Positions 2,035-58,494 of a stretch of 64,000 nt of DNA are shown here, piece after piece. Position 1 is the stretch's first letter; every line of letters starts with the position of its first letter. This DNA comes from Lachnospiraceae bacterium (GTDB taxonomy: Bacteria; Bacillota; Clostridia; Lachnospirales; Lachnospiraceae): NCBI GenBank assembly GCA_022510565.1, contig JAFLTE010000002.1, positions 62,001 to 126,000 on the forward strand, read 5' to 3'. A program made the position numbers and the translations under genes. The notes below the pieces were generated by a model. That model did no database searches, was not told the DNA's origin, and worked only from the letters and a program-made list of their open reading frames with translations.

Positions 2035-2144
2035 ATTGCGCCCCTTCCTGCAATCTCCCTAAATAATTAAAGCGTGAGGAAATGGCTAGGGATTGCCACG
2101 TTCGCCCCGTCGGGCTATCCTCACACTTTAATCATAAAATACTT

Positions 2145-9300: not shown

Positions 9301-9675
9301 TTACCTATGGTTAATCATTTCCTTGATTGCTGCGATTTCTTCCCGCCGCAGTGGTCTTGCCTGTATCAGCGCGGAAATTAACTCATCCGCTTTGCCACTG
9401 CACCAGAAGTCCACATAGTCGCTGGTCAACTGCCCCTTATACTCCTCCAACGGAATTAGAATCTTATAGAAGAATACACGGCCTTGGCGGTAGTGTCTCA
9501 AATATCCTTTTCTTACAAGACGAGCTAAGAAGGTAGATACCGTCTGCGGTTTCCAATTCTTATGGTACTTATCGTTGACTCTCTGCATAATCTCCATAAG
9601 ACTGAGCTCATCAGCGGCATCCCATACAGTTTTCATCACCAACTGCTCACAATCTGTTAAGTTTTCAAGTGTCAT
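9301..9675 (-). CDS. BlaI/MecI-type winged-helix repressor
   Basis: LTDCEQLVMKTVWDAADELSLMEIMQRVNDKYHKNWKPQTVSTFLARLVRKGYLRHYRQGRVFFYKILI. Confidence 0.85.
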   Translation of the reverse strand: MTLENLTDCEQLVMKTVWDAADELSLMEIMQRVNDKYHKNWKPQTVSTFLARLVRKGYLRHYRQGRVFFYKILIPLEEYKGQLTSDYVDFWCSGKADELISALIQARPLRREEIAAIKEMINHR

Positions 9676-12287
9676 AATCTGCCTCCATTTCTCGCTGTCT
9701 CTATAAAATCAAACAACGTTGGCATCTCCATCTCATCCTCTGCTGCCTGCAGGTACCCGACACCGTCACGGAAGTAATCTGCGTTCAATTCGACTCCATA
9801 ACCTTGCCTGTTCATCTTTACTGCTGTCATCGGTACCGTCATAAGCCCTCCGAACGGGTCAAACACCACATCATTCTCATTGGAATATCTGTTGATGATC
9901 CGCTCCACAATATCGATCTGCAAAGGACAGACATGCATCTGCTGTCTCCTGCGGCTCTGGTTGGTATTTAGGGTCCGCATACGGTTAATGTCGTCCCATA
10001 CCTCCAGGTCATTCCAACTGCCCGGCGCCACAACCATGAATGTGGCGGGAAGTTTGCCGTTTTCATCCAGCTTCTTTGCAAGTTCTACGTGTTCGCGATA
10101 GTTATAGACATTTTCACGGCTGTACTGTCTGTATACCCGCTGAAGGTTATCCACGGAAATGCTTTCCAATTCATCCTTTGCAATCAGCCTATCTCCGGAG
10201 CTGCGCCAGTATCCATGCGCATCAATCTGCCACTGTGCCCTTGTATAATCTTCTTTACTCTTAACTACCGGTTCATCCGCATATGCCGTTGAACGGTCCG
10301 TTGGTAACTTTCTAAAAAGGAGTATGTATTCCGGGCATCCGACACCCATCTTGGAGCCGTCCTTGCACTGCTCAGTCCATCCTAAACGGTAAGTCTGGTT
10401 GTTTTCCCGCACAACATCCGTTACCACGGTAATCATCCCAAAATACTGGAATCCGTGCTTCATATAGTGACTGATGCACAGCGCGTGAAACGGTTCCACT
10501 GTAGGCATTCCTGTTCCCGTGGTGTTGCCAAATAGCACTCTGTCCTTTACATGAATTGCTGCCACTCTTCCCGGCTTTAAAATACGCAGAAGCTCCGGCG
10601 TAAGGAAATCCATCTGTTCAAAAAACCTCTCTGTATTCTGGTTATGCCCGAAATCATTATAATTGGCCGAGTATTCATAGTGGTTTCCGAATGGTATTGA
10701 TGTATGGATTAAATCAATGCTACTGTCTTTCATTCTCTTCGTTTCTTCCACGCAATCATCGTTTACGGCCGTGTATCTGTTTCCTTCAATCTTCACTGTT
10801 TCCACTCCCATCTTCCTTTGCAGTGCATATTGCTTTCCTGCGCCGGACAAACCGTATTTCTTGACTATCTCAATCATCTTTGCAACCATATGGTTATGTT
10901 TTTTCCATTTTTCCAGCAACACCTCTTTAATCTGCCTTTCATCTTCCCGATAGATGATATCAATGACTACCGGCTTTTCCTGCAAGAACCGATAACACCG
11001 ATGGATCGCCTGAATGAAATCATTAAACTCAAAATCTATCCCAAGGAATATCTCCCTATGGCAGTGCTTTTGAAAGTTACAGCCTGATCCGGATAATGAT
11101 TTCTTGGTGGCAAATAGCCTTGTCCTTCCCTCGGAGAAATCAATCACCCTCTTTTCTCTTATGTCATAATCCATAGAGCCGTATATATCCACAGTCTCAA
11201 GCAGCGCCTTTTTGATGGCGTGGCGTTCTGCTTCAAGGTCATGCCATAAAAGGAAGTGGTCTTCCGGGGAAGCATCTACCAACTCTTTCATCTTCTGCAC
11301 CCGCGCATCGATGCTTTCGCGTTTGACTTCTGCCGCTTCTTTTAATCCTGCTGCCGCATTGGTAAAAAGGGATATCTGGCCGTCTTTATCTTTTGATTCC
11401 CCGTATGATACGGGAAGCTCGTGCCAGCGTACCTCAAGCGGCGGCAACACATACCCATCATCCGAATAATCAGGAGATATGTCAGAGGGCTTTGTGATAA
11501 ACAATGCCCAACTGCTCACCCATAGCCAGAATTCATCTTCCATGTTCGGGTAGAGGGTCAGGTTATTTGCCTTTGTACTGTCCCGCTGGAAGAACCGTGT
11601 CAGTGCCTGCCCCGTGTCCATTACTTCCAAGTATCCGGCATAATGAATCAGCTCTTTGTACTTGTTCGGTGACGGTGTCGCCGTGGCAACCAGCTTATAA
11701 GGAACACCCTTGAACTTATCAAGGAAAGTCTGATAGGTCTTGCTGCCGAATGACCGCAAAACACTGGCCTCGTCAAGGCTTGTTGCGGAAAAGTATGTAG
11801 GGTCAATGTCGCCGTCACGTACACGCTCATAGTTTGTAAGCAATATCGTACCTGCTGCTGCCTCTACTTCCTGCATGTTGCGCACATATGTCGGAGTCTC
11901 ATAGCCTAATATTTCCACTGCATCCCGCGTAAACTCCTGTTTTACGCCTAAGGGAAGCACAATCAGCGCTTTACCGCCGGCATATTTGACTGCCTGATAG
12001 CAGAACTCCAATTCCTGTATTGTCTTCCCAAGTCCGAAAGACTCAAACAGTGCTCTTCTGCCGCCTTTCAGCGCCCATGCCACCGCATCGCGCTGGTGTG
12101 GCTTTAATGCCATATTTAGTTTTGAAGGTTCAATCTCGAAACCGCTGTCTTTAGCAATCTCAATCTTTGTTTTTAAGAAATCTAAGTATTCCATTACCTG
12201 AAAGAAGCTGTATACACTTTCGCCGGCCGGGCTGTTGCTCCTTTCTGATTGATGATAGTATTCAAACGTTATGTGTCCCTTTGTCAC
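9672..12287 (-). CDS. SF2 helicase - DNA N4/N6 methyltransferase fusion
   Basis: 871 aa; N-term LKPHQRDAVAWALKGGRRALFESFGLGKTIQ, SLDEAS, VATATPSPN; C-term DLIHTSIPFGNHYEYS and VFDPFGGLMTVPMTAVKMNRQGYGVELNADYF. Confidence 0.85.
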   Translation of the reverse strand: MTKGHITFEYYHQSERSNSPAGESVYSFFQVMEYLDFLKTKIEIAKDSGFEIEPSKLNMALKPHQRDAVAWALKGGRRALFESFGLGKTIQELEFCYQAVKYAGGKALIVLPLGVKQEFTRDAVEILGYETPTYVRNMQEVEAAAGTILLTNYERVRDGDIDPTYFSATSLDEASVLRSFGSKTYQTFLDKFKGVPYKLVATATPSPNKYKELIHYAGYLEVMDTGQALTRFFQRDSTKANNLTLYPNMEDEFWLWVSSWALFITKPSDISPDYSDDGYVLPPLEVRWHELPVSYGESKDKDGQISLFTNAAAGLKEAAEVKRESIDARVQKMKELVDASPEDHFLLWHDLEAERHAIKKALLETVDIYGSMDYDIREKRVIDFSEGRTRLFATKKSLSGSGCNFQKHCHREIFLGIDFEFNDFIQAIHRCYRFLQEKPVVIDIIYREDERQIKEVLLEKWKKHNHMVAKMIEIVKKYGLSGAGKQYALQRKMGVETVKIEGNRYTAVNDDCVEETKRMKDSSIDLIHTSIPFGNHYEYSANYNDFGHNQNTERFFEQMDFLTPELLRILKPGRVAAIHVKDRVLFGNTTGTGMPTVEPFHALCISHYMKHGFQYFGMITVVTDVVRENNQTYRLGWTEQCKDGSKMGVGCPEYILLFRKLPTDRSTAYADEPVVKSKEDYTRAQWQIDAHGYWRSSGDRLIAKDELESISVDNLQRVYRQYSRENVYNYREHVELAKKLDENGKLPATFMVVAPGSWNDLEVWDDINRMRTLNTNQSRRRQQMHVCPLQIDIVERIINRYSNENDVVFDPFGGLMTVPMTAVKMNRQGYGVELNADYFRDGVGYLQAAEDEMEMPTLFDFIETARNGGRL

Positions 12288-13927
12288 ACAATTTTTACTT
12301 GCGGCTCACTGTAATCAATTATCATACCGGGTGCCCGAACACCTACTTTTAAGTATGGGCAGTTAGCTTCTACCAGTTTCTGAGTTATAATAGGGACTAC
12401 ACTATTACCTATTCTCTTAACCCTTTCGCTGATAGGATATGTACGCCATTTATAATCACGGTCGATGATGTAATCTTTGGGAAATCCCTGTGCCAGTTTC
12501 AACTCCTCTGCCGTCAGCATCCGCAGGAAGATATCCAAAATCACATATTCATTCGCTATGACTGTAATCAAGGCGAATCTGTCCTTAGTAACAATCGTGT
12601 GTAACGGGCCATTTACTGTCTGCCCCGTACCCTGTCCGTAATATTCAATGATGAACTCAGATACCCAGGTACATTTCTTAGCCACTTCCTCAGATACTCC
12701 CGCCTTCAGCAGTTCTTCCAGTTTTATGGTGAGCACTGATACCTGACCAAAGTGTCCGGGGCTTGTTGTAATGGTGTGAATAGGCTCAGACAAACTCTGT
12801 CCGGTACAGGTCGTGTAAAACTTCGTAAGGAACGCCATTACCGCTCCGTAACGATTGCTGGTGTCTATGGTTCTTACCGGCTCCTTAACGGATTGTCCTC
12901 TAACTTCCCTGTCAGACTGTTCGGAATGGTACTGAATCAATATTGGCGCTACAACGCAATGCTCATTCTTTGTGACTATCGTGCTGAGGGGCTCGTCCAT
13001 GCCCCTATTTCTGTCTTTTGTAAACCCTGTCTGTCCTATCTGCATGATGTATGGAGTTGCCAGCCTGTTGTGGTCAACCGTCGTAATCGTATGCAGCGGT
13101 TCATGTATGCTCTGCCCTCTAAAGCAGTCGCCACCATGATTGACCTGCACTATAAAAGGTTCAGGATTCTCAAACACGAACTTCTGCAACCCTCTGGCAA
13201 TTCGCCTCATAGTATTGTCTGCAAGCGGTTTGTTCCTGCCAAATATGGACTTTCCCAAATCAGAGAAATCCAACACCGTACTCACAGGCACCCACTTCTC
13301 AAATCCATCGGTACCACCCTTGTTGTGTGTCTGCTTTGGCCAGACAATCGGCTTTCCGTCTCTCCTGAAGATTGCATACCAGCGTTTTCGCGTAGTCGGT
13401 GCGCCATAATCAGCTGCTACAAGCTCCCTGCTGTCAAAATCATATCCAAGACTCTTCATCGCTGTAATGAATCTCTGATACTCCTCTCCTTTTCGCTCTT
13501 TTATTGGAAAACCCTGCTCATCCAATGGTCCCCACTGCTGAATCTCTTCCACATTTTCCATGATGATGACATCCGGAAGTATTGTCTTGGCGTGCTTATA
13601 AACCGCCCATGGCAGTATTCTTAATCCGGAATTTCTCGGTTTTCCGCCTTTTGCCTTGCTGTGGCTCGTACAATCAGGGCTTGCCCACATCAGTGCTACG
13701 CGTCTGCCGTCAACATATTTCTGCAAATCTACTTCGAAAATGTCCTCTGTCAGATGCAGAGTATTGGGATGATTCGTTTTATGCATCAAGATGGCTGAAT
13801 GGTCGTGATTGATTGCTATATCTACCGGTCTGCCCAGAGCCATTTCGATTCCAACGCTGGCACCACCGCCGCCGGCGAAACAGTCAATTATCAAATCTCT
13901 GTCTTTAAATAGAGCTTCTTTACCCAT
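12284..13927 (-). CDS. DNA (cytosine-5) methyltransferase
   Basis: DLIIDCFAGGGGASVGIEMA, MWASPDCTSHSKAKGG, IIMENVEEI, AADYGAPTTRKRWYAI, LTAEELKLAQGFPKDYI, RIGNSVVPII. Confidence 0.95.
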   Translation of the reverse strand: MGKEALFKDRDLIIDCFAGGGGASVGIEMALGRPVDIAINHDHSAILMHKTNHPNTLHLTEDIFEVDLQKYVDGRRVALMWASPDCTSHSKAKGGKPRNSGLRILPWAVYKHAKTILPDVIIMENVEEIQQWGPLDEQGFPIKERKGEEYQRFITAMKSLGYDFDSRELVAADYGAPTTRKRWYAIFRRDGKPIVWPKQTHNKGGTDGFEKWVPVSTVLDFSDLGKSIFGRNKPLADNTMRRIARGLQKFVFENPEPFIVQVNHGGDCFRGQSIHEPLHTITTVDHNRLATPYIMQIGQTGFTKDRNRGMDEPLSTIVTKNEHCVVAPILIQYHSEQSDREVRGQSVKEPVRTIDTSNRYGAVMAFLTKFYTTCTGQSLSEPIHTITTSPGHFGQVSVLTIKLEELLKAGVSEEVAKKCTWVSEFIIEYYGQGTGQTVNGPLHTIVTKDRFALITVIANEYVILDIFLRMLTAEELKLAQGFPKDYIIDRDYKWRTYPISERVKRIGNSVVPIITQKLVEANCPYLKVGVRAPGMIIDYSEPQVKIV

Positions 13928-18059: not shown

Positions 18060-18707
18060 GTGAATACTGTGACCGAAGATGAACAAAAAAAAGTTTTTGC
18101 ACGTAATTTAAATCGATACGTAGATATGTCACATAAAACTCAAAGAGAAATAGCCCAAGCTATAGATGTTTCTCCCCAGACATTTAATACCTGGTGTCAA
18201 GGAATAGCTATTCCCCGTATGGGAAAAGTTCAGCGTCTTGCAGACTACTTTAATATTGGCAAGTCAGATTTAATTGATGATAAACCAATAAATCATTCAG
18301 GGAACGCTGCTAAGGGTATTAAAATCAATGTCCTCGGCCGTGTAGCTGCCGGAATACCTATTGAGGCTATTGAAAATATTATTGATACAGAAGAAATATC
18401 AGAAGAATTGGCACGAACCGGCAAATTTTTCGGTTTACGCATTCAGGGTGATAGTATGGAGCCGGATATCCATAATGGGGATATTGTAATTGTACGTCAG
18501 CAGGATGATGCGGAATCTGACGAAATCGTAATTGCTCTAGTGAACGGCAATGATGGGGTATGCAAGCGACTGAAGAAATACGAAAGCAGCATTGCCCTTG
18601 TATCTACCAATGCAAATTATGAACCAATGTATTTTACCAATAAGGAAATTTCAGAAAAACCTGTTAGAATTATTGGGAAGGTTGTTGAACTTAGGAGAAA
18701 ATTCTAA
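18060..18707 (+). CDS. CI/LexA-like phage repressor with S24 peptidase domain
   Basis: HTH (QREIAQAIDVSPQTFNTWCQGIAIPRMGKVQRLADYFNI) plus GLRIQGDSMEPDIHNGDIVIVRQQDDAESDEIVIALVNG. Confidence 0.92.
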   Translation: MNTVTEDEQKKVFARNLNRYVDMSHKTQREIAQAIDVSPQTFNTWCQGIAIPRMGKVQRLADYFNIGKSDLIDDKPINHSGNAAKGIKINVLGRVAAGIPIEAIENIIDTEEISEELARTGKFFGLRIQGDSMEPDIHNGDIVIVRQQDDAESDEIVIALVNGNDGVCKRLKKYESSIALVSTNANYEPMYFTNKEISEKPVRIIGKVVELRRKF

Positions 18708-18783: not shown

Positions 18784-20385
18784 ATGCCAAAATCTATACT
18801 GGACAAAATTGTTGAAAAGAGAAAAATGCCTGTGCTATTTATTGGTTCAGGGATTTCCAAGCGTTATTTATATGGTTTTCCTGATTGGGAAGGCTTATTA
18901 AGAGATTCTTTTAAATCTGTAAATCCTGATCCATACTATTACAATCGTTATGTAGAACAATTTAAACGTGAGGGAAATTCTCCCTTTGAGATAAATACTA
19001 AATTGGCTACTATAATCGAAAATGATTTTAATGCTGCCTTCTATGCTAGAAAAATAAAAATAAAAATAGGAAACACTAAAAATCCAAAATGGGTTGACCA
19101 GGGGGTTTCTCCTTATAAAATGTTTCTTGTAAGTTACTTTAAAAAACTTAAGGTCAATTCAGACCCATTATTATTACAAGAAATAGAATCTTTCCGTTTG
19201 TTAAAAAACAAGATATTAGCTGTAATAACAACAAATTATGATACATTTATAGAATCAGAAATTTTAAGAGATGATTATCAGGTATTTTGTCACCAAAATG
19301 AACTTTTTTCTGCTGATAGTTATAATATAGCTGAAATATATAAAATTCACGGAAGTGTATTAGATGCTAAATCGCTTGTTATAACAGAAAAGGATTATGC
19401 TGATTTCAACTCATCCAGAAAACTGATCATAGCCAAAATGCTGACCCTTTTCGCGGAATCTCCCATTATATTTATGGGTTATTCATTTACGGATGAAAAC
19501 ATTCAACATATCATAGAAGATTTTTTGAATTGCTTGACAGTAAAAGAACTGTCAATAATAGGCAATCATTTTGTTTTTATTAGCTATAAGAAGGGCGAAA
19601 AACGTCTGCTAGAGACCAAGCGTACTATATTTACCTCAAACAAAATAGAAATTCCTATTACAGAAATAACGACGGATAATTATGGTGCTATATACGAGAA
19701 GCTCAACAATATCATTCCGGGCATTGCTGCATCGCGTGTTCGTGAAACCCGGAAAATCATAAAACAAATTGTAGATCAGAATATTACTAATGAATCCGCA
19801 GAGTCAGTTATCGTAGATATTGATGATTTGGATAATATTGATCTTTCAACAAAGCCGTTAGCTATTGCAATCGGCTATCGTGACTCAATTTTAAACAAAG
19901 TCGGATATGGCATATTAGATGTGGATTCAATAATAGAAGATATACTTTTTGACAACAAAAAACTTAATGCGGATAATATGTGCTTTGATAGGTTTAAGTC
20001 AATATCTTCAACTCATTTGATACCTGTTTTTAAGTATGCAAAAGGGTGTACTGTACCTATTCCTTCCTCAAGTAAATTGAACGACTATATAAATGCTCGT
20101 AACTCCATAGATAAAATTATTTCAAAATCGCAGTTAAAATCTATAAATGCATTACCAACTGCATCTACTATTGATGAGCTACATACCGCGATGAACAGTC
20201 AAAACTCGTTCGACAAAAAGGCCGGCGTTCTTTTAAAAAGTATCGGTAATTTTACAATTGATGAAATCAGAACAGAGTGCCAGTCACTTTTCCGTGAAAT
20301 CAGCGGTACGAAAATTACATCTACTTGTTTCAAACGATGTGTTATGTATATCGATTTCAAGGAAAACTACACAAAAAAAAGTTAA
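18784..20385 (+). CDS. SIR2-domain protein, candidate anti-phage defence effector
   Basis: FIGSGISKRY, ITTNYDTFIES, YKIHGSV, IIFMGYSFTDENIQHIIEDFL = SIR2-like NAD-binding motifs; 533 aa with C-terminal extension. Confidence 0.85.
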   Translation: MPKSILDKIVEKRKMPVLFIGSGISKRYLYGFPDWEGLLRDSFKSVNPDPYYYNRYVEQFKREGNSPFEINTKLATIIENDFNAAFYARKIKIKIGNTKNPKWVDQGVSPYKMFLVSYFKKLKVNSDPLLLQEIESFRLLKNKILAVITTNYDTFIESEILRDDYQVFCHQNELFSADSYNIAEIYKIHGSVLDAKSLVITEKDYADFNSSRKLIIAKMLTLFAESPIIFMGYSFTDENIQHIIEDFLNCLTVKELSIIGNHFVFISYKKGEKRLLETKRTIFTSNKIEIPITEITTDNYGAIYEKLNNIIPGIAASRVRETRKIIKQIVDQNITNESAESVIVDIDDLDNIDLSTKPLAIAIGYRDSILNKVGYGILDVDSIIEDILFDNKKLNADNMCFDRFKSISSTHLIPVFKYAKGCTVPIPSSSKLNDYINARNSIDKIISKSQLKSINALPTASTIDELHTAMNSQNSFDKKAGVLLKSIGNFTIDEIRTECQSLFREISGTKITSTCFKRCVMYIDFKENYTKKS

Positions 20386-20716
20386 TGAACATTTTTCAGT
20401 AAACACTGGAAACATCACTAACTTTCTTTTTTAGAAAACCTAGCATTTCAATATGCTTTTAGTTCTTTTTATACAGTCATTTAATGACTTATTGGTTTAT
20501 ATAGTACTATCATATTTATAATTTGTCAATATGATAATTTTTATTTATTCAAATTCCGCCCCGGTGCTACCAACACCGGAGCGGATCGGAACTATACCGG
20601 GAAACCCGATATAATACATATGAAAACATTTGCATTATATCATTTTCCTGGCTGAATTACAAGTGCCGGGCATTTTTATGTCCTGCCACCAGTAAGATGT
20701 ACAGGAGGACAATACT

Positions 20717-22087
20717 ATGGATAAGGTCAAACGATGTGCAATCTACATCCGCGTCAGCACAGAGGAGCAGCATTTAAACGGTCTCTCTCTGCCGGCGCAA
20801 CGTAAAGCTCTCACAGACTTCGCGGAGCATAACGGCTATACCATTATAGATTACTATGCGGATGAAGGTATCTCTGCACGTAAGCCCATGAAGTACCGCA
20901 AGGGACTCCTCCGTCTGCTCGATGATGTAAAGAAGAACAAAATCGACATGATTCTGGTCACGAAGCTGGACCGATGGTTCCGTAATATCAAGGACTACAA
21001 TATAACCGAGGAGATTCTTCAGGCACATAACTGCTATTGGAAGACCATCTTTGAGAATTATGACTCTTCCACCGCCAACGGCCAGATGGTCATTAATATC
21101 ATGCTGTCGGTAAATCAGGCGGAATGTGACCGTACTTCCGAGCGTATCAAGGCTGTTATGGACTATAAGCGCTCCATCGGCGAAGTCACCAGCGGTAAAT
21201 GTGCCTGCTATGGCTATAAGGTTGTAAACAATCGACTCGTAAAGGATGAATCTGTGTCTGACATCGTCGATGATGCCTACGACCACTATCGCTCATGTTA
21301 CTCTATCCGGAACACCTTTTATTACCTTCAGAAAAAATACGGTGACAGAGCGCCCTCATGCAACAAGGTGGATCGTCTCTTTAAGAATGAGACCTACGCC
21401 GGCAAAGACAAGGATAACTACAACTACTGCGAACCGTATATTACATACAGCGAATTTCAGAAGTTCCGGCAGATATCCTCCGCCAAAACCAGCACTGTCG
21501 GCAAATATGATCCATATATCTTTTCTTCCCTTATCAAGTGTCCCTGGTGCGGCAATAACTATACCGGATACAGGAAGAAGCAGAAGCTGAAGAGCGGCGG
21601 CGAGAGCATCTACATTAAGTACCGCTGCGGCAACAAGTTCGGGCGGCATAGCTGTGCACACTTTACCGAACACAAAATCGAGGAATATATGCTCACCCAC
21701 GTCTCCTCCAGACTGCAGGAGGAGATTACCAGCGTACAGATGAAGGCCAAACAACAGCATAAAGGCTATGATGCCGAAACACTGCATAAGGAAATGGAGC
21801 GGCTGAATATTTTGTTCCAAAAGGGAAGAATCACTGAGAGCTACTATGATGAACAGTATGAATTACTTGAAAATAAGTTAAGGGAATGTGAGGGTGCAGA
21901 GAAACCTACCCCTCTGAGTGCCTACAACAATCTTCTGGCGACTTTTAGCGGCGACTGGCATGAAATGTATGTCAACCTTGATAAAGCCCATAAGCAGACC
22001 TTCTGGAAGAGCACGATTAGTAGCATTGAGATAGACCGTGAGACGCATCAAATAAGCGGTTTTAATTTTCTCAAAGAATTGGAGTAG
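20717..22087 (+). CDS. Large serine recombinase (prophage integrase)
   Basis: AIYIRVSTEEQHLNGLSLPAQRKAL...VTKLDRWFRNIKDYN...; C-terminal zinc-ribbon CPWCGNNYTGYRKK...RCGNKFGRHSC. Confidence 0.95.
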   Translation: MDKVKRCAIYIRVSTEEQHLNGLSLPAQRKALTDFAEHNGYTIIDYYADEGISARKPMKYRKGLLRLLDDVKKNKIDMILVTKLDRWFRNIKDYNITEEILQAHNCYWKTIFENYDSSTANGQMVINIMLSVNQAECDRTSERIKAVMDYKRSIGEVTSGKCACYGYKVVNNRLVKDESVSDIVDDAYDHYRSCYSIRNTFYYLQKKYGDRAPSCNKVDRLFKNETYAGKDKDNYNYCEPYITYSEFQKFRQISSAKTSTVGKYDPYIFSSLIKCPWCGNNYTGYRKKQKLKSGGESIYIKYRCGNKFGRHSCAHFTEHKIEEYMLTHVSSRLQEEITSVQMKAKQQHKGYDAETLHKEMERLNILFQKGRITESYYDEQYELLENKLRECEGAEKPTPLSAYNNLLATFSGDWHEMYVNLDKAHKQTFWKSTISSIEIDRETHQISGFNFLKELE

Positions 22088-30962: not shown

Positions 30963-31180
30963 AAAAAAAGCTGACCGCATAGGGTCAGCTTTAACTCCAA
31001 GTTACCTGATAGCGCCCCATCGATTCGATGACAGTCATACAGCTCTTAACTGTATGCCCAAGGTGAGAATCTGCAGACAACTCTCCCTTTCGGCGTTTTC
31101 CCCTTTCAAAATCCATCGTCTGTGCCTGCCACATCAAAACCTCTACTGATGAAAAACGCAACCTCTATCTGTCCATATTG
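30963..31180 (-). ncRNA. Lysine riboswitch (L box) with intrinsic terminator upstream of dapA
   Basis: Reverse strand GATAGAGGTTGCG...AGTAGAGG...GAAAGGGGAAAACGCCGAAAGGGAG...TTGGGCATACAG..CTGTATGACTGTCATCGAATCGATGGGGCGCTATC..., then AAAGCTGACCctatgcGGTCAGCTTTTTTT; same element order as Bacillus lysC L box. Confidence 0.88.
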
Positions 31181-46515: not shown

Positions 46516-46551
46516 GAAGTTCCTAAGGCTAGTATTACCCTTAGGAACTTC
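46516..46551 (+). other. CRESS-type replication origin stem-loop with TAGTATTAC nonanucleotide
   Basis: GAAGTTCCTAAGG-cTAGTATTAC-CCTTAGGAACTTC: 13-bp perfect stem, 10-nt loop. Confidence 0.88.
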
Positions 46552-46558
46552 TGTAACT

Positions 46559-46651
46559 TGTAACATTTTCAAGTTTTTGGCTTAAATATCAGAAAAATGA
46601 GTTGTAACATTTTTGTAACATTGGTTGTAACATTGCAACTTCTGTAACATT
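46559..46651 (+). repeat. Iteron array: five TGTAACATT copies between origin and rep
   Basis: TGTAACATT at 46559, 46603, 46614, 46626, 46643. Confidence 0.85.
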
Positions 46652-46670
46652 ATGCGGAGAGTATTGATAA

Positions 46671-47681
46671 ATGGATGACAAAACACAGTCTAGGAAGTGG
46701 CTACTCACTTTCAACAATCCTGAAAAGTATGATTTCGGTCATGATAACATAAAGGCTGCATTATCCATGATAAAGAACATCACATATTGGTGTATGTGTG
46801 ATGAGGTTGGAAAAGAGGGTACATACCATACGCACTTGTTTATCTTCCGTGAAAATCAGATGCGGTTTGCTCAGATAAAAAAGAAGTTCCCGATTGCTCA
46901 TATAGACTATTGCCGGGGGACGACTCAGGAGAACCGTGATTATGTCCGTAAAGAGGGTAAATATAAAGATACGGATAAGGCAGAGACTAATCTGATAAAT
47001 ACCTTTGAGGAATACGGGGAATGCCCTACAGAGGAACAGGGAAAGCGGAATGATTTGAATGAATTATATGGACTCATCAAGGATGGTCTGAGTAATTATG
47101 AGATTTTGGAACTCAATCCAAAGTACATGATGCAGTTCCAGAAGATAGACTATTGCAGGCAGGTTGTCAGGAATGAGCAGTTCAAGAACACGTTCAGGAA
47201 GCTGACGGTTGAATACTGGTATGGAGAAACGGGCGCAGGTAAGACAAGGGAAGTCATGGAGAGATACGGATATGAGAATGTATATAGGGTGACAAATTAT
47301 AAATACCCGTTTGACGGATATCAGGGTCAGGACGTGATTGTGTTTGAAGAGTTCTTCTCCAGTATCAGGATACAGGAAATGCTTACATACTTGGACGGCT
47401 ACCCTCTGGAACTGCCATGTAGATATAATAACAAGATAGCCTGTTATACAAAGGTGTTTATCCTGAGTAATGTTGATTTTAATGAACAGTATCGGGATGT
47501 ATTCAGAGAACATCCTGAAACGTTCAAAGCATTCCGTCGTCGGATCGGCTGTATTAAACAGTTTGGCAAGGATGGACTTAAGGAATATCAGAACATAGAT
47601 GAGTATGAAAAGAGTTATGATAGATTTGTGACTTTGGAAGATTATGAACAAGTAGAAATACCGTTTGATTTGGATGAGTGA
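46671..47681 (+). CDS. rep: CRESS-DNA-type Rep (HUH endonuclease + SF3 helicase)
   Basis: RKWLLTFNNPE (RCR I), YHTHLFIF (RCR II/HUH), DYVRKEG (RCR III Tyr), GETGAGKT (Walker A), DVIVFEEFF (Walker B), KVFILSN (motif C). Confidence 0.9.
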   Translation: MDDKTQSRKWLLTFNNPEKYDFGHDNIKAALSMIKNITYWCMCDEVGKEGTYHTHLFIFRENQMRFAQIKKKFPIAHIDYCRGTTQENRDYVRKEGKYKDTDKAETNLINTFEEYGECPTEEQGKRNDLNELYGLIKDGLSNYEILELNPKYMMQFQKIDYCRQVVRNEQFKNTFRKLTVEYWYGETGAGKTREVMERYGYENVYRVTNYKYPFDGYQGQDVIVFEEFFSSIRIQEMLTYLDGYPLELPCRYNNKIACYTKVFILSNVDFNEQYRDVFREHPETFKAFRRRIGCIKQFGKDGLKEYQNIDEYEKSYDRFVTLEDYEQVEIPFDLDE

Positions 47682-51526: not shown

Positions 51527-51646
51527 CGAAATCCGCCCCAGTGCACCAACACCGGAGCATCTACTTTGACAATATAATATACTTATCAAGGGAGCCAATG
51601 GGGCGATTACGTCAGCTGCCGGACATTTTGAAAGGAGCTGGTGCCA

Positions 51647-51733
51647 ATGGTTACATATTCGGATTTAATTCAATTTGTAATTATGCTTTGCGCAGTAGTA
51701 ACTCTTGTCATTTATTCACAACGCAAAAAGTAG
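51647..51733 (+). CDS. Holin-like type I toxin peptide (28 aa)
   Basis: RBS AAAGGAGC; MVTYSDLIQFVIMLCAVVTLVIYSQRKK, matches Hol_Tox pattern (MVTY.DL.QF..FL.AL..L......). Confidence 0.75.
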   Translation: MVTYSDLIQFVIMLCAVVTLVIYSQRKK

Positions 51734-51765
51734 CGCCCTCGACTTGGTAGGTTAAGGCGCTACTC
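51724..51765. terminator. Hairpin at toxin 3' end / antisense RNA candidate region
   Basis: AGTAGCGCCctcgacttggtaggttaaGGCGCTACT. Confidence 0.6.
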
Positions 51766-51983
51766 TTTTGTAATGCTTTACTTTGCCGTCGGCTAGGTGT
51801 ACTCTAGCCATTGGTTCTCTTGTTAAGTATATTATATCTTAAATATGCAGTTTTGCAATAGAAATTATCGATTTTTACTTTCTAAACATCGGTTTTTACC
51901 TTTGAAACCCCATAATTTGAGGATAAATATACAGAGTTACTCGTGTATTTTTATGCCCTGCGGCCGGCAAGGAGGAAGATACC

Positions 51984-52578
51984 ATGGCAAAAACAAAGAA
52001 ACTACCGAGCGGCTCATTCCGCTGAAGTCCTACTAACATATTTCAGTAGTAAAGATAAGGATATGGAACTTGCCGTCTATCTTGCTGCCTTTGGAACGTT
52101 ACGGTGTTCGGAAATATGCGCATTGACTGCTGACGATGTGAAGGGAAATGTAATCTCCATAAACAAGGCCATGGTCAATAAAGGGAAAAGCGAATGGGTT
52201 GTCAAAACCACCAAAACGATATCAAGTACAAGATTTATAGAGATGCCTGCGTTTGTTATAGAGAAACTGCCAACTTGCGGACGAATAGTAACCATCAGTC
52301 CCGACCAAATCACAAGCCGCTTTGAACGTGCGTTTCTAAAGCTGAATATCCCAGGTTTCCGATTTCATGACCTACGGCATTATGCAGCAAGTATCATGCA
52401 CGCAATCGGTGTGCCGGATCAGTATATCATGCAGCGCGGCGGGTGGGGATCCGACAGAACCCTTAAGGCTATATACAGAGGGACGATTGCAGAGTATACG
52501 CAGAAATATACGGACATGACTTTATCCCATTTTGACAGTATGCAACACGAAATGCAACACGAAATCAAAAACCCCTAG
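51984..52578 (+). pseudogene. Tyrosine recombinase (integrase), internal deletion
   Basis: MAKTKKLPSGSFR* then, in another frame, AEVLLTYFSSKDKDMELAVYLAAFGTLRCSEICALTADD...FRFHDLRHYAASIMHAIGVPDQYIMQRGGWGS; N-terminal/core-binding domains missing. Confidence 0.88.
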
Positions 52579-58159: not shown

Positions 58160-58405
58160 TAAATAAATAACCGCGGTATTCTCACTACTCCCTTCAGGAA
58201 ATAGAGACGAAATAATCCGCGGTTCCACTCTACTTAAAGGATACTCCCATAAACATATCCTTTCACTCTAAGACCTATAACGGGGTCAACCGGGCATATG
58301 CCTGACTCCGGGGCGCACTTCCCATTCTCTCCACGAGAACCGCTTACAGCCGACGGCGGTTCCTCTCTGTCGCTTCTAAAAAAGGTACTCTTCCCTTTCA
58401 TTGTC
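58160..58405 (-). promoter_or_regulatory. T-box leader upstream of cysE-cysS
   Basis: Reverse strand AGAGTGGAACCGCGG antiterminator bulge (58221-58236 region) followed by CCGCGG...CCGCGGTTATTTATTT terminator; GGGAAGTGCGCC gives a candidate TGC (Cys) specifier. Confidence 0.88.
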
Positions 58406-58494
58406 AGTTATCTATATCCTTTTATGCTATTAGAATATGCAAAAAAGGTGATTTTGTCAATCAAATTTTATATGACGATTACGGTACTTATCTA

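Follow-up and report, generated by a model that had tools for sequence, protein, structure and literature searches.

A leader shared by unrelated phage integrases in Lachnospirales: a putative antisense-RNA attenuator

A leader of 160 nt, ending at the start of a serine recombinase gene in a 64,000-nt stretch of DNA from a Lachnospiraceae bacterium (contig JAFLTE010000002.1, positions 62,001 to 126,000, hereafter the window), belongs to a module found before both serine and tyrosine recombinases. The opposite strand of this module appears to encode a short antisense RNA with its own terminator, and the reading which we favour, with moderate confidence, is that the leader works like the antisense-RNA attenuators of plasmids pT181 and pIP501, acting here on read-through from repressor and cargo genes into the integrase. 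Sequence and computation support the antisense promoter and terminator, the sense terminator, the strand-specific structure, the association with recombinases and the swapping between them. How repressor and cargo genes are kept on with the integrase silent, and the integrase nevertheless on upon entry, is poorly known in gut Clostridia; the module offers a concrete RNA-based answer to prophage integrase control in these bacteria, which is directly testable, since it occurs in dozens of genomes and in cultured Ruminococcus gnavus phages.

The gene order in the window is an S24 repressor, a SIR2 gene, the leader and the serine integrase, with prophage genes (terminase, minor capsid) adjoining. 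The repressor gene (18060..18707, + strand; Pfam Peptidase_S24, 3.7e-30, and HTH_3) is the first in a presumed lysogeny operon. Directly 5' of the leader lies a SIR2-like cargo gene (18784..20385, +; Pfam SIR2_2, 2e-23; PADLOC candidate PDC-S25, 5e-92), probably with a role in anti-phage defence. The controlled gene, at 20717..22087 (+), encodes a serine recombinase of 456 aa (Pfam Resolvase, 5.6e-33, and Zn_ribbon_recom), its sequence being preceded by the ribosome-binding site AGGAGGA (20703..20709, +). The hairpin from 20555, the element on which a sequence-only reading of this DNA had centred, is one part of this leader.

Among viral and genome contigs, pattern scans yielded full relatives of the leader, one ahead of a serine recombinase (L012) and others ahead of tyrosine integrases (L037, L053, L022); a second viral pattern (GGAACYRTACCGGRANNACC) gave, apart from L012, chance matches only. 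Covariance models were built from nine sequences (R1) and from 39 (R2). R1 had matches in 33/299 genomes at family level, and R2 in 63/392 genomes in the order, 21/391 in the class and 8/349 in the phylum, the samples overlapping and including metagenome assemblies, and the E-values being rough. The module is widespread in the family and order and rare elsewhere in the phylum, where two matches from other classes, read by eye, show the order HTH repressor, leader, tyrosine integrase.

A total of 144 matches were oriented, and 139 of them are followed, within 450 nt, by the start of an ORF of 70 aa or more. Profile search assigned 123 of these 139 ORFs to the recombinases, 80 of them tyrosine and 43 serine; Pfam agrees, with 74 Phage_integrase and 43 Resolvase. 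Several of the other 16 resemble integrase fragments (L077, L144, L147). This search and table of downstream genes, which the sequence-only reading had called for, upholds its proposal of one portable regulatory leader common to serine and tyrosine recombinases. It also contradicts the idea of a generic dispersed repeat, or terminator, without enrichment upstream of recombinases, to which we give hardly any credence: in viral contigs (L011, L017, L020, L025) the bare hairpin does occur as an ordinary terminator, and it also stands before a toxin cassette in the window, but the full element stands before recombinases in the proportion just given, and does so also in phages found by plain blastn.

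These phages were matched with a leader of another subtype, which recovered R. gnavus and Roseburia phages; the window leader had no blastn match among phage and plasmid records, nor had two further leaders among plasmids. In isolated R. gnavus phages, described in PMC10072058, the leader is flanked by the integrase and, on its other side, by a cargo gene that varies (hypothetical, superinfection exclusion, beta-sandwich or zinc-finger); neither antisense nor non-coding RNA came up in a term search of that paper. The leader is also present in Ruminococcus phage RG-TP1 and Dulem virus 35, and a weaker match (28 bits) precedes the integrase of Roseburia phage Jekyll. The genome of the window itself has 11 Phage_integrase and 2 Resolvase matches, and the leader was found with one intact recombinase only. 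Its closest second copy (C48:143867-143971, outside the window) is 79% identical over 90 nt by blast with the 162-nt window leader, scores 94.5 bits with R1, and precedes an apparent integrase remnant next to tRNA genes. Some leader-bearing integrases adjoin tmRNA, tRNA or large SRP RNA genes (L090, 1-253; L143, 1900-2286; L037, 3028-3109), which are likely integration sites.

The idea of a swapped module, also put forward from the sequence alone, holds as well, since near-identical leaders precede serine and tyrosine integrases which share nothing else. Full-length leaders (about 130-145 nt) that are 87-92% identical stand before unrelated recombinases: 92% over 127 nt between L022 (tyrosine) and L068 (serine), 89% over 130 nt between L187 (serine) and L198 (tyrosine), and 89% over 145 nt between L089 (tyrosine) and L141 (serine). 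These three pairs have no similarity in the upstream kilobase, the coding sequence or the protein. In a further pair, L097 and L098, upstream DNA (93%) and leader (88%) are alike and the integrases unrelated. For 34 of the 123 leaders, the nearest relative stands before a recombinase of the other class, fewer than the mean of 57 for random labels, so leaders partly follow the gene and partly move. The regulatory cassette can thus be regarded as mobile in its own right, passing from one recombinase superfamily to the other without its target gene.

On the strand opposite the integrase, the layout is TTGnnn, 17 nt, TGnTATAAT, about 70 nt, hairpin 1 and a U-rich tail. An antisense promoter was recognized by consensus in 116 of 123 leaders (mean score 10.6, against 6.5 for shuffles); among 120 scored antisense promoters, the spacing is 17 in 96 and the TG extension is present in 109. 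Since the training of the search models included the -10 box and hairpin 1, the frequencies of both owe something to selection; the -35 TT, which the search model does not cover, still occurs in 72 of 123. In the window, this promoter (20634..20662, -) has the same layout, with TTGTAA at 20662-20657, a spacing of 17 nt, TG at 20642-20641 and TATAAT at 20639-20634. From promoter and terminator consensus, an antisense RNA of about 75 nt (20550..20627, -) is predicted, the ends being estimates placed 6-7 nt past the -10 box (5') and past hairpin 1 (3').

Hairpin 1 (20555..20585, -) is the predicted terminator hairpin of this RNA. Across the relatives, the antisense strand gives the better hairpin in 122 of 123 leaders, with 24.5% G.U pairs as against 1.6% on the sense strand and a composition-controlled folding z of -5.0 as against -3.2, and an A-rich tract upstream of it, equivalent to the antisense U-tract, is found in 102 of 123. 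The window copy has 12 pairs, with a G.U on the - strand where the + strand has a C.A mismatch; its loop contains UUGG and the U-tract that follows in the antisense terminator is weak. The 'hairpin leader' of the sequence-only reading is real as a leader, but the conserved hairpin is mainly the terminator of the predicted opposite-strand RNA. Hairpin 1 was rejected as a sense-strand terminator, no T-run being present 3' of it on the + strand and the + strand pairing being weaker. The TATAAT block was likewise rejected as an integrase promoter: there is no conserved + strand -35 box, and the conserved extended -10 is on the - strand. This strandedness of the structure signals also speaks against a DNA-level role for the dyad, as an operator or as a recombinase binding or attachment site. 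Although the dyad adjoins the recombinase gene and overlaps a promoter, the same leader serves serine and tyrosine recombinases, whose sites are unrelated, and we regard such a role as very improbable.

On the integrase strand, hairpin 1, weakened by its C.A mismatches, is followed by hairpin 2, which encloses the antisense -10 box, and by an intrinsic terminator. Hairpin 2 (20597..20651, +), a candidate antiterminator, is formed by two helices (20597-20604 with 20644-20651, and 20608-20615 with 20634-20641), in each of which one pair is changed on both sides within the subfamily of the window, a small sample. Its composition-controlled z is -4.4 on the sense strand and -3.75 on the antisense strand; the raw G.U content (13.4% antisense, 4.3% sense) points in the opposite direction to the z-score, a conflict of which composition may be the cause. 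The sense terminator (20647..20679, +) pairs 20647-20652 with 20665-20670 and ends in CATTTTTAT. A terminator before the start codon is found in 89 of 126 leaders, compared with 4.5% of shuffles, and is missing, by the criteria applied, in 37; its z is -3.3 on the sense strand as against -2.4, and its G.U content 10.4% as against 4.4%. A leader peptide from TTTTTATG was considered and discarded, inspection by eye showing that it is not conserved.

The 3' arm of hairpin 2 and the 5' arm of the terminator have bases in common in the window copy (20644-20651 and 20647-20652), and folding gives the terminator a probability of 0.057 in the free leader and of 0.989 when the antisense target is blocked. 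For the 89 leaders with a terminator, the median rises from 0.38 to 0.94 on the same comparison. The mean terminator probability is 0.39 with the native 5' half and 0.73 with a shuffled one (Wilcoxon p=1e-9). Pre-emption of the terminator until antisense pairing is predicted in the window copy and in 55 of the 89.

The other 34 leaders are predicted to terminate even without the antisense RNA; they include the R. gnavus phage leaders (CAGCC...GGCTG subtype), whose free probability of 0.94-0.98 is left unchanged in the prediction by antisense pairing. Such default termination, predicted in about a third of leaders, would be expected of an insulator, in which two terminators, one per strand, isolate the integrase and the short - strand transcript is a by-product or serves polymerase collision; that upstream genes run straight into the element also fits. 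This explanation, which we hold to be a real if minor contender, leaves unexplained the strong internal promoter, hairpin 2 and the suppression of the terminator by native 5' halves, and gives no account of how the integrase is ever expressed.

As regards the source of the sense transcript, no conserved integrase promoter was found within 120 nt upstream, the best sites scoring hardly above shuffles (7.39 against 6.95), and in 109 of 123 cases the gene on the 5' side runs in the same direction, with a median of 16 nt between its end and the element. Read-through from the repressor/cargo operon is therefore the probable source of integrase transcripts.

For the favoured attenuator, we infer that the antisense RNA is produced, that it acts by attenuation and that the sense RNA arises by read-through. 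The leader would sit between the last gene of the lysogeny operon (repressor, then cargo) and the phage integrase, its sense strand being made by RNA polymerase reading through from the upstream gene. When hairpin 2 forms, the terminator would be deprived of its 5' arm, masked by the 3' arm of that hairpin, and transcription would proceed into the integrase. The promoter inside the leader would give rise to the antisense RNA of about 75 nt, ending at hairpin 1 and spanning this hairpin together with the 5' arm of hairpin 2; by pairing with the nascent sense leader, it would prevent hairpin 2, leaving the terminator free to form and to end transcription ahead of the integrase. In a lysogen, repressor and cargo could then be expressed while the integrase is off, and a newly arrived element, without antisense RNA as yet, might have an early burst of integrase.

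Extended to biological timing, the same scheme would make the leader an entry timer: in a naive cell, still free of antisense RNA, read-through from the lysogeny operon would yield integrase, and as the antisense RNA builds up that operon would go on to give repressor and defence cargo only, with a cassette interchangeable between unrelated recombinases. We infer this extension tentatively and consider it less probable than its converse; under it, the interchangeability of the cassette would allow the type of integrase to be replaced without rebuilding its control.

The antisense RNA might, in turn, act post-transcriptionally. In IS10/Tn10, an outward promoter yields RNA-OUT, a short antisense RNA directed against the 5' end of the mRNA of the mobility gene, whose translation it blocks. 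The integrase leader, too, has an outward promoter and a predicted short antisense RNA whose target would be the 5' part of the mRNA of a mobility gene, and in some subtypes (L022, L069) the ribosome-binding site lies within the 3' arm of the terminator, so a block of translation, or RNase III cleavage of the integrase mRNA, could be envisaged. Unlike RNA-OUT, however, the predicted antisense RNA covers the far 5' leader, away from the ribosome-binding site; its 5' end in the window, at about 20627, is 90 nt 5' of the start codon, and the translation start is not overlapped. Moreover, the integrase leader keeps its sense terminator, with the T-tract, in the 89 of 126 leaders already mentioned. 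A post-transcriptional mode of action is in our judgement improbable.

The attenuator as proposed shares its principle with plasmid systems, the recombinase target and the distribution being new. In pT181 (RNAI/repC) and pIP501 (RNAIII/repR), the antisense promoter lies within the leader, the antisense RNA measures 87 nt (pT181) or 136 nt (pIP501), and an intrinsic terminator just 5' of the start codon is pre-empted by competing upstream pairing (PMC5703833, PMC4981023). The integrase leader likewise combines a predicted antisense promoter, a predicted short antisense RNA and a sense terminator, with competing upstream pairing predicted in the window copy and in 55 of the 89 leaders that have a terminator. 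It differs in being directed at integrases of phages and related elements instead of plasmid replication proteins, in that no sense promoter of its own was found (read-through being likely), and in being swapped between unrelated target genes. To our knowledge, the described attenuators of this type all target plasmid replication initiators; with a recombinase as target in 123 of 139 cases, the module is a variant outside the plasmid attenuator family.

Another conserved leader before phage integrases is known to affect their expression, but there an alternative sigma factor is involved, and RNA structure and antisense RNA are proposed here. The structured RNAs int-alpA (RF02996) and skipping-rope (RF02924) are found in or near phage regions, and neither matches the integrase leader. 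With Rfam release 15 at gathering cut-offs, the leader was unmatched in the window and in 18 relatives, and an antisense attenuator before integrases was not found described in the open-access literature, so that the module is apparently undescribed so far. An int-alpA RNA does occur at 2057-2125 (-) of the window, in the prophage region near the minor capsid and terminase genes, and two tandem skipping-rope RNAs lie immediately 5' of the integrase leader in L067 (1284-1485).

The genes upstream of the leader are diverse and include HTH repressors and IrrE-like proteases, as well as likely defence genes (Abi_2, ThsB-like TIR, restriction endonuclease-like, SIR2). Further defence-like hits just 5' of the leader are PD-Lambda-1 and PemK. 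Since the gene in this position is often defence-like, unknown defence genes may occupy a cargo slot that the leader marks, and the leader can serve as a search model both for integrases and for the often defence-like cargo just upstream.

The sequence-only reading had drawn its idea of a shared leader from a second hairpin at 51532..51558, and this part of its evidence is weaker than it looked, the second example being a toxin cassette. The two sequences quoted are present (20555-20582 and 51532-51558) and are 93% identical over 27 bases (own-genome blast, E=8e-4); the 20555 sequence has no further match in the window at up to 3 mismatches, 0.00 being expected by chance. The likeness between the two genes in TTTTTATGYCCTGC...GGAGGA...ATG was also confirmed (20673-20719 and 51950-51986). 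The 51532 copy, which lies a few bases 3' of a SHOCT-domain gene, had however been misassigned as an integrase leader: it is followed by a holin-like toxin cassette, and some 450 bp separate it from the start of the integrase relic. Nor do the hairpins share a 'TATAAT-like block', the two AT-rich blocks being different things, because the one after 51532 is the 5' region of the toxin cassette (GACAATATAATATACTTA), which recurs in the same form before the same toxin in other genomes.

The cassette contains a 28-aa holin-like ORF (51647..51733, +), a probable type I toxin, whose Pfam Hol_Tox match (E=0.016) is below the family cut-off; a relative in L095 reaches E=6e-5. Beyond it, at 51950..52578 (+), lie the decayed end of an integrase leader (TATTTTTATGCCCTGC, AAGGAGGA) and a tyrosine integrase relic. 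The terminator/ribosome-binding site end alone is left of this leader; the first frame of the relic, from the ATG at 51984, stops after 13 codons, and the C-terminal half is in another frame. In L069, L070, L071, L073 and L083, a toxin cassette stands directly before an integrase leader, so the arrangement in the window is probably a decayed form of that order.

Hol_Tox cassettes are often found directly 5' of the integrase leader and carry facing TATAATATACTTA blocks at both ends, as would be expected for a type I toxin whose antisense antitoxin is transcribed convergently. In addition to the window (51570-51850) and the five loci just named, such cassettes occur in L059, L095, L142, L144-L147, L152, L186, L189 and L194. 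Finally, the window holds a prophage gene pair at 9672-13927 (-), encoding a SNF2/helicase and N6/N4 methylase protein and a C5 cytosine methylase, an ssNA-helicase RNA (RF03070) just 5' of a Rep-like protein that carries Viral_Rep and RNA_helicase domains (46519-47681) and, both of an ordinary kind, a lysine riboswitch (31002-31175, -) and a T-box leader (58200-58410, -).
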